DNA from: a virus
Direction: 5' to 3' (one strand)
Length of the DNA stretch: 37,177 nt
Virus record (IMG/VR): IMGVR_UViG_3300033064_001011
Coordinates: 1 to 37,177 of that record
Of the stretch, positions 4,554 to 28,215 are shown piece by piece. A program made the translations under genes and the position numbers. The notes under the pieces were generated by a model. That model saw only the letters and a program-made list of their open reading frames with translations. It had not been told where the DNA came from and searched no databases. Each line of letters begins with the position of its first letter. Position 1 is the first letter of the stretch.

Positions 4554-4645
4554 TCATCGGTAGCTCAGATGGTAGAGCACGCGGCCCAAGTAGCGATAGC
4601 GAAAAGATAACCGTGATGTCGCGGGTTCGATTCACGCCTGATGAA
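4554..4645 (+). tRNA. tRNA-like gene with a 26-base anticodon loop
   Basis: The fold is canonical apart from the anticodon loop. The acceptor TCATCGG (4554-4560) pairs with CTGATGA (4638-4644) with one G-T pair. T8 A9 are followed by D-stem GCTC/GAGC. The anticodon stem is CGCGG (4580-4584) / CCGTG (4611-4615), the variable loop ATGTC, and the T-arm GCGGG-TTCGATT-CACGC has one G-A mismatch. The discriminator is A4645 and no CCA is encoded. The anticodon loop has 26 bases (4585-4610) instead of seven, a 19-base excess. Removing bases after CCC or CCCA would leave CCCATAA (anticodon CAT, but C33 rather than T33); other cut points give GAT or CAA, so the isotype is undecidable. It lies 16 bases before the tmRNA and is probably co-transcribed. 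Possible readings are a tiny intron, a decayed tRNA or a tRNA mimic. Confidence 0.65.
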
Positions 4646-4661
4646 GTTTAAAACTGAATAC

Positions 4662-4974
4662 GGGCGTGAAATGGTTTCGACCGGACGAATGACGGTCACG
4701 ACTACACCGACTGGAATGGCAAGGCAGGCCAGTATAAAAGCCCTCCGAATTTGTAATTGCTAACACGCAACTACTGAAGGCTGCATAGCAGCTTTCCCCC
4801 AGCCTTCGACTCCGATGGGAGATGCTGGGGCAACATCGGACAGTTTCTCGTTTCAGGAAAACGAGTGGTGGAGGTTGCCGGGCTGTAAGGTAAACCGCCA
4901 TGACCTACGGCGGTAGCGGTGTGATGTCTGATTGAAAGCGTGCCGGGACTCGGGTTCGACTCCCGGCACGTCCA
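4662..4974 (+). ncRNA. ssrA: Transfer-messenger RNA (tmRNA)
   Basis: tmRNA rescues stalled ribosomes by acting first as an alanyl-tRNA and then as a short message for a degradation tag. The 5' end GGGCGTG (4662-4668) pairs with CACGTCC (4967-4973) as a seven-base acceptor with one G-T pair, followed by discriminator A4974. The T-arm is TCGGG-TTCGACT-CCCGG. The 5' D-like region ATGGTTTCGACCGG is typical. The resume codon GCT at 4759, preceded by TTGTAATT, opens a tag frame encoding ANTQLLKAA and ending with TAG at 4786-4788; the terminal Ala-Ala is the usual protease signal. CCA is not encoded. The length of about 313 bases without CCA is normal. It is a complete one-piece tmRNA, unusual but not unknown in phages. 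Confidence 0.93.
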
Positions 4975-4998
4975 TTATATTACAGCTGATACTGAGAC

Positions 4999-24032: not shown

Positions 24033-24056
24033 AACATATTCACGCCGCACACATGG

Positions 24057-24084
24057 ACGCCGCCCTCACGGGTGGCGTTTTTTT
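24057..24084 (+). terminator. Intrinsic terminator
   Basis: The stem ACGCCGCCC (24057-24065) / GGGTGGCGT (24070-24078) has one G-T pair and a TCAC loop, followed by T7. It closes the early/middle operon 25 bases after the XRE gene. Confidence 0.92.
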
Positions 24085-24090
24085 ATTCCC

Positions 24091-24112
24091 TTTGTTACAC
24101 ATGCGTAACAAA
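24091..24112. promoter_or_regulatory. Palindromic operator candidate
   Basis: TTTGTTAC (24091-24098) and GTAACAAA (24105-24112) are perfect inverted copies around ACATGC. The location between the XRE-gene terminator and the structural promoter is typical for a repressor site. The XRE protein is the obvious candidate, by inference. Confidence 0.55.
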
Positions 24113-24146: not shown

Positions 24147-24176
24147 TTGACTGGCCAGCCACATGGTTCCAATACT
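24147..24176 (+). promoter_or_regulatory. Candidate late promoter for tRNA and structural operon
   Basis: TTGACT at 24147-24152, an 18-base spacer and AATACT at 24171-24176. It is the best match between the terminator and the initiator tRNA, about 75 bases before the tRNA. Confidence 0.5.
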
Positions 24177-24252: not shown

Positions 24253-24327
24253 CGCAGGGTAGAGCAGTCTGGTCAGCTCGTTGGGCTCATACCCCGAAGG
24301 TCGAGGGTTCAAATCCCTCCCCTGCAA
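24253..24327 (+). tRNA. Initiator tRNA-fMet (CAT)
   Basis: The cloverleaf has bacterial initiator hallmarks. C1 and A72 do not pair (24253, 24326), while acceptor pairs 2-7 (GCAGGG/CCCTGC) are perfect. The anticodon stem ends with three G-C pairs (G29-G31/C39-C41). The D-stem has A11-T24 instead of pyrimidine-purine. The anticodon loop is CTCATAC. The T-arm is GAGGG-TTCAAAT-CCCTC and the discriminator is A73. CCA is not encoded. C1xA72 blocks deacylation and EF-Tu use, and the G-C pairs direct the tRNA to the ribosomal P site. It lies at the head of the head/tail operon, and the first gene starts two bases after it. Confidence 0.93.
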
Positions 24328-24329
24328 TT

Positions 24330-24536
24330 ATGGCAACAGCATCAACAGATTCAGACGCAGCACTCGCCGCGGCGGCTACAGCCCCGAAGCGGGTGGTCTC
24401 TGATAATACGTCAGCGGAAGCCCACTCGCTATCCGATTTGATTGAGATGGACAAGTATCAGATCAACAAAGCCGCGAGGGGCAACCCCGCGGGCATGTTG
24501 ACGAATGTTAAACTCGTACCACCGGGCACCACATGA
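24330..24536 (+). CDS. Small head protein preceding portal (hypothetical)
   Basis: A 68-residue protein between the tRNA and the portal gene, the position of lambda W. The N-terminus is Ala-rich; the end LSDLIEMDKYQINKAARGNPAG then KLVPPGTT resembles short proteins found before portals in other phages. I do not see gpW signatures. There is no Shine-Dalgarno; the ATG is two bases after the tRNA, so cleavage of the tRNA 3' end would leave a nearly leaderless message. Confidence 0.7.
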   Translation: MATASTDSDAALAAAATAPKRVVSDNTSAEAHSLSDLIEMDKYQINKAARGNPAGMLTNVKLVPPGTT

Positions 24537-26044
24537 GCAAAGCGGTCTCAAAATCTAAAAAGGCTACAAAGGCTGCAAAGCCCACAAGCGTACGCCGCAC
24601 TGCTTCTCTGCCTGTCCGGGCTCGGTACGACGCCGCACAGACCACCGCCAACAATCGACGGTACTACGTGAACGCTGACGCACTCTCGGCGAACGCCAGT
24701 AACTCCCCCGAGGTCCGAGCGGTTCTCCGCTCCAGGGCCAGGTACGAGGTAGACAATAACTCGTGGGCTAAGGGGATGTCTCTGACCCTCGCCAAGTCGA
24801 TCATCGGCAAGGGTCCCCGATTGCAGATGAACGAAACGAACCGGACACTGAACCGACTCGCCGAATTGGAGTGGATCAAATGGTCTCGCAAGATTCGATT
24901 CGGTTCGAAGCTCCGGACCATGAGAAAATCACGACTCTCGGATGGCGAGGCGTTCGGTATCATTGGAATAAACAAGGGGCTCAGTGGCCCGATCAACGTG
25001 GACCTCCGATTGATTGAAGCCGATCAGGTCGGGAGCCCCGAGCGATCGTATGAGGCGGTACTGAGTAATAACGAGATCGTCGATGGAATCGAGTACGATT
25101 CTTTCGGCAACGAGACATACTTCCATATCCTGCAATCTCACCCGGGCAGCGAATCGCTTGATCTAGGACTCTCGTCGCGGAGGATCGCGGCCCGGCAAAT
25201 AATCCACTGGCAGCGAGAGGATCGTGCCGGTTTACACAGAGCTACGCCAGAGATCACGCCGGCACTCCCCCTGTTCGGGATGCTCCGGCGCCATGCACTG
25301 GCTGTAGTGGACGCAGCGGAGACCGCAGCGGATTACGCGGTCTTGTTCTCGACGACTCTCCTGGGGCAAGACGCTACGGCCACGGAGGTCCCTGAAGCCA
25401 GCGAGTTCGGCGAGATGGAACTCGCTCGCCGGATGGGTACATTCTTGCCAGAGGGCTGGACCGCCAACCAGATGAAGGCCGAGCAACCTACTACGGTGTA
25501 CGACGAGTTCACCAAGAGTATTCTCAACGAGGTCGCCAGATGCTTGGAGATGCCTTTGAATATCGCGATCGGGAACTCCGGCGGGTACAACATGGCGTCG
25601 GGAAAACTCGACGGCACGATCTTCCGCGACTTCGTTGACGTCGAACGCGACGACAGCGAGATCATTGTTGTCGATCGGATGTACGATGTATTCATCAGCC
25701 AGCTAGCATTACTCCCCGAGTTCGCCGAGTGGCGTGGTCGCGAGGACGATCTGAAGCATCAGTATTTCTGGGATGGCCGGAAGCCCGTTGATCCCACCAA
25801 GCAATCGACGAGCGAGAAAATCGACCTGTCGAACGGCTCCACGAACCTCGCAGAGATCCAGGCCGGCAAGGGTCGGGATTGGGAACCGCAGCAAGAGCAG
25901 GGCATCCGCGAGAAACTCCAAGAGGTTCAGACGGCCAAGGACCTGGCCAGCGAATACGATCTGACTCCCGAGGAAGCTATCGCGATCGTGACCAAAGAGA
26001 ACCCGATAAGCATCTTTATCGAAGAAGAGAAAGAGCCATCATGA
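24533..26044 (+). CDS. Portal protein (lambda B-like family)
   Basis: A 503-residue portal, the dodecameric ring through which DNA enters the head. The N-terminal region (YDAAQTTANNRRYYVNADALSAN, split) followed by RYEVDNNSWAKGMSLTLAKSIIGKGPRLQ, the SDGEAFGIIG segment and NVDLRLIEADQVGSP match the lambda-type portal family. The ATG overlaps the previous stop (ATGA). The length is usual for the family. Confidence 0.9.
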   Translation: MSKAVSKSKKATKAAKPTSVRRTASLPVRARYDAAQTTANNRRYYVNADALSANASNSPEVRAVLRSRARYEVDNNSWAKGMSLTLAKSIIGKGPRLQMNETNRTLNRLAELEWIKWSRKIRFGSKLRTMRKSRLSDGEAFGIIGINKGLSGPINVDLRLIEADQVGSPERSYEAVLSNNEIVDGIEYDSFGNETYFHILQSHPGSESLDLGLSSRRIAARQIIHWQREDRAGLHRATPEITPALPLFGMLRRHALAVVDAAETAADYAVLFSTTLLGQDATATEVPEASEFGEMELARRMGTFLPEGWTANQMKAEQPTTVYDEFTKSILNEVARCLEMPLNIAIGNSGGYNMASGKLDGTIFRDFVDVERDDSEIIVVDRMYDVFISQLALLPEFAEWRGREDDLKHQYFWDGRKPVDPTKQSTSEKIDLSNGSTNLAEIQAGKGRDWEPQQEQGIREKLQEVQTAKDLASEYDLTPEEAIAIVTKENPISIFIEEEKEPS

Positions 26045-28215
26045 TAAAATTCAGGAACCCATTTAAACGGTTACCCGTTGGGAAACTCATTGAAGCTCAG
26101 GACCCGAAGACGCCTGACGATCTGGCGATGGGATTCGCGGCCGATGTCGATATCACCGCAGCGGCCGGCGACGATGGCAAGCCGGATCCCGCGAAGCCAA
26201 AGAGTTTCTCGATGACCGCCTACACCGGCGGACCCATGAAGCTCGCCGGATGGTTCTATCCCGTGGTCGTTGACCTGGAGGGGCTGGCGTTCAAGGCTCC
26301 TATGACGATGCTCGGCAACCACACCAACGATCCCGATTGGGCAGCGGGCATCGCTGACAAGATCGAGATCGAGGGTACGAACCTCCGGATCTCCGGCCAG
26401 GTGTTCGCCGCGGGCACAACCCCGATGGCTGATAAGATCGCGAAGCTCAGTGCCGCCGGCATGAAGTGGCAAGCGAGTATTGGTGCTGTCGCTGACACAA
26501 TCGAATTCGTCGAGGCGGGCAAGAAGGCATCCGCCAACGGTCAAACTTTTAACGGTCCCATGCACATCGCTCGCACGAGCACATTGCGTGAGACATCTTT
26601 CGTAGTCATTGGCGCCGACTCAGATACGTCGGCTAACGTAGCGGCGTCAAAGACGCCAGAGAAAAACACAGGAGATTCAAAAATGAACCCCGAACTGAAA
26701 AAGTGGCTCATCGCCAACGGTTTCGATGTCGATATCGTCGCTGGTAACGAAACGCAGCTCTCGTACCTTACGGCCAGGTGGACGGCTGACGTCGCCGCCG
26801 AAGCTGGCGGAACGCCGCCGATCAAAGCCACACCGCCCGAGACTCCCCCCGCCGAGCCGAATACGGAGATACTGGCCCGCCTCGATCGCATGGAACGTGA
26901 TACTCAGATCAACGCGATCTGCGGTTCGGACCATGACGAGATCAAAGCATGTGCCATCAAAGATAACCTCGATGTCGAGGTTGTACGCGGCATGGTCGCG
27001 AACGCGGTCAAGGCCAAAGAACTGGAAGCCGGTTTCCGTATGCCCGCGATCAACCTGGGCAAGGACGGCCCGAGCCCCGCGAGCGTTATGGAAGCCTCGA
27101 TGTGCTTGACCGGCGGGCTGCAAGAGGACGACATCGGCAAGTCGTACGGCGAGAAGGTAATGAACGCCGCACTCACCCGCGACTTCCGCGGATTCGGACT
27201 CTCGGCTCTGATCTTTGCGAGCCTCGCATCAGCCGGTATGTCCGCTCGACCCGGAGCGATCACCGACGATACGATCCGAGCGGTGCTCCAAGCCGACAAG
27301 CGGCAGATGGAAGGTGCGTTCTCGACTCAGAGTTTCACCGGACTACTGAACAACGTGGCGAACAAGGTTCTGCTGAAGGCGTACCAGAGCGTAACGTCCG
27401 CACTCGACCAGATCTCATCGAGTCAGTCGGTCCCCGACTTCAAGCAGATGCAGAGCTACTCGCTGACCGCAGACGGCCAGTTCACTGAGGTCGGTCCCGA
27501 TGGCGAGCTGAAGAACATCAGCCTCCAGGATACTCAGTACACCAACCAGGCCCAGACCCAGGGTGCGATCATCGCACTCACCCGAGAGGTGATGATCAAT
27601 GATGACCTGGGTGCGTTCATGCGTATCCCCGAGATCCTCGGGCGTCAAGCCGCACTGGCCAAAGAGCGGGCCGGGTTCACTGTTCTGCTGAATAACACAG
27701 GCAGTTTCTTCTCATCCGCCCACGCTAATACACTGAGCGGTGCGGGCACCGCATTGCAGATCAGTGCTCTGACCGCGGCCGTCGCTCAGTTCGAGAATCA
27801 GACCGACGAGAACGGCGATCCGATTGTGATCGTGCCGAATATCCTCTTGGTCCCGCCGGCACTGAAGGTCGTGGCTCAACAGTTGTTCAACGAGACCCGC
27901 GTCAACGAGACCACCACGACGAACAAGCCTAAGCCCGCGAACAATCCTCACGCCGGATTGTACCGCCCGGTATCCAGTCCGTTCCTGTCGAACACTACGT
28001 TCAACTCGAACGCGACGACAACCGGCTGGTATCTGTTCGGGAACCCGCAGGACATCGCAGCCCTCCAGATCGTTTATCTCCAGGGCAAGCGTACACCGAC
28101 GATCGAACGCGGCGAGGTCTCGTTCGACAAGCTCGGCGTGGCGTTCCGCGGTTACTTCGACTTCGGCGTGGCGTTCCAGGATTACCGTGCTGCCAACTGG
28201 CAGGAAGGTGCATAA
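26041..28215 (+). CDS. Prohead protease-scaffold-major capsid fusion protein
   Basis: A 724-residue polyprotein. Residues about 50-205 look like a prohead protease (MTMLGNHTNDPDWAAGIADK, then GMKWQASIGAV; the His and Ser are candidates for catalysis). Residues about 215-330 form a Pro-rich, charged scaffold-like segment (ILARLDRMERD). Residues about 390-724 are an HK97-type capsid protein (FSTQSFTGLLNNVANKVLL, ITLTREVMINDDLG-like segment, ending GYFDFGVAFQDYRAANW). No stop separates the parts. Fusions of this kind are known in some phages. The start ATG 26041 overlaps the portal stop; an open frame extends further upstream inside the portal gene but is not used. Confidence 0.88.
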   Translation: MIKFRNPFKRLPVGKLIEAQDPKTPDDLAMGFAADVDITAAAGDDGKPDPAKPKSFSMTAYTGGPMKLAGWFYPVVVDLEGLAFKAPMTMLGNHTNDPDWAAGIADKIEIEGTNLRISGQVFAAGTTPMADKIAKLSAAGMKWQASIGAVADTIEFVEAGKKASANGQTFNGPMHIARTSTLRETSFVVIGADSDTSANVAASKTPEKNTGDSKMNPELKKWLIANGFDVDIVAGNETQLSYLTARWTADVAAEAGGTPPIKATPPETPPAEPNTEILARLDRMERDTQINAICGSDHDEIKACAIKDNLDVEVVRGMVANAVKAKELEAGFRMPAINLGKDGPSPASVMEASMCLTGGLQEDDIGKSYGEKVMNAALTRDFRGFGLSALIFASLASAGMSARPGAITDDTIRAVLQADKRQMEGAFSTQSFTGLLNNVANKVLLKAYQSVTSALDQISSSQSVPDFKQMQSYSLTADGQFTEVGPDGELKNISLQDTQYTNQAQTQGAIIALTREVMINDDLGAFMRIPEILGRQAALAKERAGFTVLLNNTGSFFSSAHANTLSGAGTALQISALTAAVAQFENQTDENGDPIVIVPNILLVPPALKVVAQQLFNETRVNETTTTNKPKPANNPHAGLYRPVSSPFLSNTTFNSNATTTGWYLFGNPQDIAALQIVYLQGKRTPTIERGEVSFDKLGVAFRGYFDFGVAFQDYRAANWQEGA
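26670..26685 (+). promoter_or_regulatory. Internal ribosome binding site and in-frame start within the capsid fusion
   Basis: AGGAGA at 26670-26675 lies seven bases before an in-frame ATG at 26683 (Met215), at the boundary between protease and scaffold-capsid parts. Initiation here would give a 510-residue scaffold-capsid protein in excess over the protease fusion, comparable in principle to the nested C/Nu3 start of phage lambda. Confidence 0.7.

Follow-up and report, generated by a model that had tools for sequence, protein, structure and literature searches.

The head operon of the virus analysed here opens with an initiator-type tRNA gene whose 3' end lies 2 nt from the start codon of the first protein-coding gene, where many relatives carry a Shine–Dalgarno (SD) sequence instead. 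The tRNA, its placement, the 2-nt abutment, the replacement of the SD and selection on both fold and anticodon can all be read from sequence comparison. The interpretation to which we give slightly better than even credit is that the gene serves as a dual-purpose leader, in which 3' processing would free an initiator tRNA and, at the same time, leave a near-leaderless mRNA. What phage tRNAs are for has been an open question for more than 50 years, and most proposals regard them as supplements acting in trans. In the present case, just one type of tRNA, the initiator, is positioned to the nucleotide before one gene and stands in for the SD on several branches, which makes a combined cis and trans role directly testable. 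If true, the tRNA punctuation of mitochondria would have an equivalent in a bacterial virus, and it would offer a natural setting for learning how near-leaderless mRNAs arise and are translated in Planctomycetota.

The window is the whole 37,177-bp IMG/VR virus record IMGVR_UViG_3300033064_001011. Its late region runs from a terminator through a promoter to the tRNA, the first feature after both, and continues with a gpW-like ORF, the portal gene, a protease–capsid fusion, a cement protein and tail genes (Table 1). An earlier note on this DNA had the tRNA leading the structural operon, and the gpW-like ORF and portal downstream bear this out. The label gpW-like is given by position, and the ORF found no family match in Pfam or PHROGs. 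The portal start overlaps the gpW-like stop codon (ATGA), so the portal is probably translationally coupled to the gene before it; the true start of the protease–capsid fusion probably lies downstream of the mechanically assigned TTG. Two features of the junction, which reads CCCTGCAA-TT-ATG, had been overlooked: the tRNA 3' end (24327) and the ATG (24330) are separated by only 2 nt, and the gene behind the tRNA has no SD. Its SD duplex energy of +2.2 kcal/mol is the weakest of the 30 window genes examined, most of the others falling between -4 and -10. A tRNA that abuts a start codon in the place of an SD points to a cis role in translating the first gene of the operon.

Table 1. Features of the late leader and the start of the head operon in the window.
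Feature	Coordinates	Strand	Evidence or remark
Intrinsic terminator, parting upstream genes from the late leader	24055..24080	+	ahead of promoter and tRNA
Dyad TGTTACACATGCGTAACA, upstream of the promoter	24093..24110	+	common to window, L006 and L005
Predicted promoter TTGACT-N18-AATACT	24147..24176	+	identical hexamers in L002 and L006
Initiator-type tRNA(CAU), head-operon leader	24253..24327	+	ARAGORN; Rfam; cloverleaf is the minimum-energy structure; model R1, 81 bits
2-nt spacer TT, tRNA 3' end to start codon	24328..24329	+	sequence; exactly 2 nt in 24/27 abutting relatives
gpW-like gene (68 aa), first in the head operon	24330..24536	+	without Shine–Dalgarno; homologue before portal in 313/325 loci
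Portal protein (lambda family)	24533..26044	+	PF05136, E 2e-41; phrog_21
Prohead protease and major capsid protein fusion	25879..28215	+	PF25209; phrog_4523

At up to one mismatch, the dyad occurs in the window, L006, L005 and two loci lacking a tRNA, and in 0 of 741 shuffles; it is possibly an activator site. Its TGT-N12-ACA form led us to consider an Ogr-like activator, but L005 encodes, on the upstream side, a small zinc protein whose match is the NrdR zinc ribbon (PF22811), and no activator is named. This NrdR-type protein (L005:2835-3038) lies just before the late leader, a similar one is present in the L190 lineage, and the L005 protein may regulate late genes through the GTTAC...GTAAC dyad. 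Elsewhere in the window, the phage encodes its own tmRNA (4662-4977; ARAGORN tag ANTQLLKAA), preceded by about 15 nt by a tRNA-like gene of 92-94 nt with an odd anticodon loop (4554-4645; ARAGORN, Rfam).

The leader tRNA is well supported as an intact tRNA of the bacterial initiator type, as the earlier note had proposed. ARAGORN called a tRNA-Met(CAT) with boundaries at exactly 24253-24327 on the plus strand, and the same segment matched Rfam RF00005 (61.8 bits, E 3e-11). In the unmodified RNA, the cloverleaf is the minimum-energy structure, at -27.7 kcal/mol. A folding test on the whole unprocessed leader found no special stability (z +1.2). Read from the sequence, the tRNA has a C1xA72 mismatch, A11-U24, a GGG/CCC anticodon stem (G29-G30-G31/C39-C40-C41), a CAU anticodon and the discriminator A73, and CCA is not encoded. 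Positions 1:72, A11-U24 and the anticodon stem rule out an elongator Met or Ile2 identity. The three G-C pairs, listed in the earlier note among the defining initiator features together with C1xA72 and A11-T24, hold for the window but are found in only 7 of 33 relatives and vary in Planctomycetota host initiators too.

We gathered relatives by portal queries against IMG/VR and Planctomycetota assemblies (Phycisphaerae, Pirellulales and others). An initial contig scan of genomes with a narrow portal query returned no matches, and a broader query led to prophages of Planctomycetota. The finding of relatives in Planctomycetota assemblies indicates that these are the hosts. Among the best-listed matches, the portals of named phages reach at most about 26% identity to the portal of this family, which thus appears, within those matches, to have no cultured phage in the named-phage collection. 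Leader tRNAs were detected with a covariance model (R1) built from leader tRNAs and run over the relatives' loci, and counts are based on 247 non-redundant loci, from viruses and prophages of Planctomycetota, with enough upstream sequence. The earlier note had suggested looking in related phages for the same gene ahead of the terminase or portal genes: a leader tRNA precedes the gpW-like gene in 49 of these loci and is missing from 198. Since the same element occupies the same place in 48 other non-redundant relatives, its placement is beyond chance. Among the 49, the spacer to the start codon is 5 nt or less in 27 (exactly 2 nt in 24), 10 nt or more in 22 and never 6-9 nt. On a portal tree of 245 rows, presence and absence of the tRNA require at least 27 changes, 16 of them on well-supported branches. 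The cultured species Rhodopirellula rubra and Rubripirellula obstinata carry portal loci (L256, L254, L255) in which a search with R1 detected no leader tRNA.

Chance abutment was ruled out by scanning IMG/VR and host genomes for the generic pattern 'T-arm...acceptor 3' strand + NN + ATG'. It was retrieved from 97 contig stretches in 2.9 million viral contigs (IMG/VR), of which about 20 lead into a gpW-like gene, and downstream portal homology was confined to those. Most of the remaining stretches end in CC-ATG and have either a very short ORF or none, and a few have longer ORFs without portal homology. The same pattern gave one match, a CCATG, in 392 Planctomycetota genomes.

The tRNA and the SD replace each other: the SD is absent where the tRNA abuts and present where it does not. 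The median SD energy at the gpW-like start is -0.2 kcal/mol behind an abutting tRNA, compared with -7.0 behind a spaced tRNA and -5.8 with no tRNA. Of eight independent pairs on the portal tree, an average of about 7.6 show the weaker SD in the abutting partner and none the stronger (sign test p 0.008), although the absence of the SD is not independent of abutment, because the C-rich 3' half of the tRNA fills positions -20 to -3 and so makes the lack of an SD partly automatic. Even so, the operon is started there, with its SD site filled by the tRNA. The exchange is visible between tree neighbours whose portals are about 90% identical, L026 having the tRNA followed by TTATG and L030, L048 and L032 having GAGGGACATATTTTTTTATG. 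The abutting arrangement appears in the place of the SD on several separate branches, and the two features are separable, because 22 relatives carry both.

Conservation was assessed in 42 distinct leader tRNAs (25 abutting, 17 spaced), 33 of which are of canonical type and were used for stem analysis. The CAU anticodon is kept in 40 of the 42, comprising all 25 abutting and 15 of the 17 spaced members. All 42 have an unpaired or weak 1:72 position (one U-A, three U.G; 41 not Watson–Crick), and A73 is found in 41. Within the canonical set, A11-U24 occurs in 29 of 33 and compensatory changes affect stem positions 27, 28, 29, 50 and 51. These patterns indicate that the fold and the anticodon are under selection. 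The two members that have lost the anticodon, L027 (a CTAG tetraloop) and L035 (an extended hairpin), are spaced and bear an SD, yet keep the acceptor, D and T arms and the 1:72 mismatch, suggesting that the fold is of value in cis.

We infer the remaining steps, namely tRNA processing, leaderless translation, and charging and use of the tRNA in initiation, from this sequence evidence. The late promoter would yield tRNA and mRNA as a single RNA, from which host tRNA maturation would excise the initiator tRNA, with RNase P cutting on the 5' side, an RNase Z-like endonuclease cutting behind A73, and CCA being added. The 3' cut should fall after A73 because host initiators, too, lack an encoded CCA. 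The freed tRNA would be charged, formylated and used in trans as an initiator, and the same cut would set the 5' end of the head mRNA about 2 nt before the AUG (5'-UU-AUG). As the promoter lies upstream of the tRNA, such a 5' end beside the AUG would need processing. The near-leaderless mRNA would then be started by 70S ribosomes with fMet-tRNA and no SD, and translation of the portal would follow that of the gpW-like gene through the stop/start overlap. Ordinary 30S loading would be hard to picture with a tRNA still folded at -3. Extra initiator (fMet-)tRNA strongly favours leaderless mRNA and hardly affects canonical mRNA (PMC9031893), and comparative work has described leaderless signals in Planctomycetes (PMC5397173), so the two products, tRNA and mRNA, would support each other. 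Against the dual-purpose leader count, besides the partly automatic lack of an SD and the 22 relatives that carry both tRNA and SD, the following points. An ordinary leader suffices in the 198 relatives lacking the tRNA, and 3' maturation by exonuclease alone would leave no leaderless mRNA; the RNase Z matches in host genomes are divergent, the best scoring 41-72 bits per genome, under the 293-bit cut-off. More tentatively, and with odds that we place below even, the initiator tRNA may work as a translation-start device: its excision would supply an initiator with a nuclease-resistant loop and give the capsid mRNA its leaderless 5' end, so that capsid synthesis would be tied to tRNA maturation, to the phage's advantage when SD-led initiation or the host initiator tRNA is compromised.

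A purely trans role, in which the phage supplies an initiator tRNA resistant to anticodon nucleases to replace or supplement host tRNA-fMet during late expression and the abutment is compaction without function, is in our judgement unlikely. In its favour, the initiator features are conserved, and loop positions 37-38 read AA in every one of 78 host initiators, identified with a pattern that left both positions free, but differ from AA in 33 of 40 leader tRNAs (AA in 7; AC in the window), a contrast inflated by relatedness. Its direction fits nuclease evasion and matches the published anticodon-loop changes by which phage tRNAs escape VapC-type nucleases (PMC10264068); PIN-domain proteins are encoded in 7 of 10 host genomes. 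The earlier note's suggestion that the tRNA replaces host tRNA cleaved by defence thus gains indirect support from the loop and the PIN proteins, but no nuclease is linked to the window tRNA, and PMC10264068 finds tRNA-fMet genes to be generally avoided by phages if the nuclease targets the anticodon itself, as in the VapC-LT2 case. Supply in trans also fails to explain why the spacer is exactly 2 nt in 24 loci belonging to different structural subtypes and why the tRNA and the SD stand in an either/or relation, and the initiator tRNAs that other phages carry between terminase and structural genes encode CCA and abut no gene.

The converse, that a tRNA-shaped RNA handle is cut or folded to set the mRNA 5' end and frees no working tRNA, would suit the anticodon-less L027 and L035 and the D-arm variants L043, L186 and L320. 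We consider it improbable: a handle function by itself would not preserve initiator identity, CAU is universal among abutting members, and both losses fall in spaced members with an SD. Finally, tRNA genes are frequent attachment sites of temperate phages, and some relatives lie in bacterial contigs, so the tRNA could be the remnant of an integration site or a recent, functionless capture from the host. This seems very improbable, given that a complete tRNA sits within the late operon rather than marking the end of a prophage, none of the window proteins examined was recognised as an integrase, host genomes retain separate initiator genes, and the stems covary across portals of about 40-75% identity. 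An attachment-site origin was accordingly rejected on position and on the separate host initiator genes.

Among known systems, the nearest parallel in operation to the proposed dual-purpose leader would be the tRNA punctuation of animal mitochondria, where a tRNA also directly precedes the start codon. Mitochondrial start codons lie at or very near the mRNA 5' end, according to the work of Ojala, Montoya and Attardi (1981) as cited in PMC5203842. Animal mitochondrial mRNAs initiate with fMet-tRNA and no SD, as we propose for the phage head mRNA. Unlike in mitochondria, the phage case concerns one tRNA, specifically the initiator, and one viral operon in an otherwise SD-using bacterium, with processing that we postulate. 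In content, the nearest parallel would be the E. coli metY-rimP-nusA-infB operon, in which a tRNA-fMet gene likewise stands ahead of the protein genes of an operon and is cut out of the RNA (PMC6511841). In contrast to the phage leader, metY is cellular, its excision is attributed to RNase III (with RNase E as a possible substitute) and its 3' side carries an additional promoter, P2; PMC6511841 does not describe metY as abutting a start codon. The leaderless lambda cI mRNA (PMC9031893) resembles the predicted head mRNA in having no SD and an AUG near the 5' end and in being favoured by high fMet-tRNA, but its 5' end comes from transcription starting at the AUG, whereas that of the head mRNA is predicted to come from tRNA processing. 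The leader shares an anticodon loop that differs from the host's with the phage tRNAs that evade anticodon nucleases (PMC10264068), but those form a cluster, while the leader is a single initiator tRNA at an operon head. Among open-licence papers, we found no report of an initiator tRNA abutting a phage head operon.

Initiator-like tRNA genes are also found in the named phages Caulobacter CcrColossus, Xanthomonas DoCa5 and Erythrobacter ZS04. That of CcrColossus is not at the head operon, unlike the leader tRNA. Those of ZS04 (L180:3001-3074, between terminase and portal) and DoCa5 (L179:1656-1728) are unannotated, lie directly after the terminase, and differ from the leader tRNA in encoding CCA and abutting no annotated gene. 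An initiator tRNA near the terminase may be recurrent across unrelated phages. One Planctomycetota prophage has a second kind of tRNA-Met(CAT), with CCA encoded, roughly 7 kb downstream of its portal gene (L185:16443-16517).

Other elements were observed in the leaders of relatives. In L309 (2676-2754), the leader tRNA has the palindromic repeat CCTGCCTGCCGGCAGGCAGG instead of its T-arm, and similar palindromes occur in other leaders of the clade (L017, L021); a mobile palindrome may be breaking the tRNAs of this clade. Many relatives have a structured RNA, mostly 113-124 nt long, that follows the late promoter region and precedes the leader tRNA or gene. It is present in L012:3445-3560, L186:7579-7699, L213:91-207, L035:399-515 and about 40 more distinct loci, though absent from the window. 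It had no Rfam match in the loci scanned. Its form is GACAACC...CUGAUC...hairpin with a U-run...GGUUGUC, with both-sided changes in 14 of 24 predicted pairs, and it resembles a terminator set within a larger structure.
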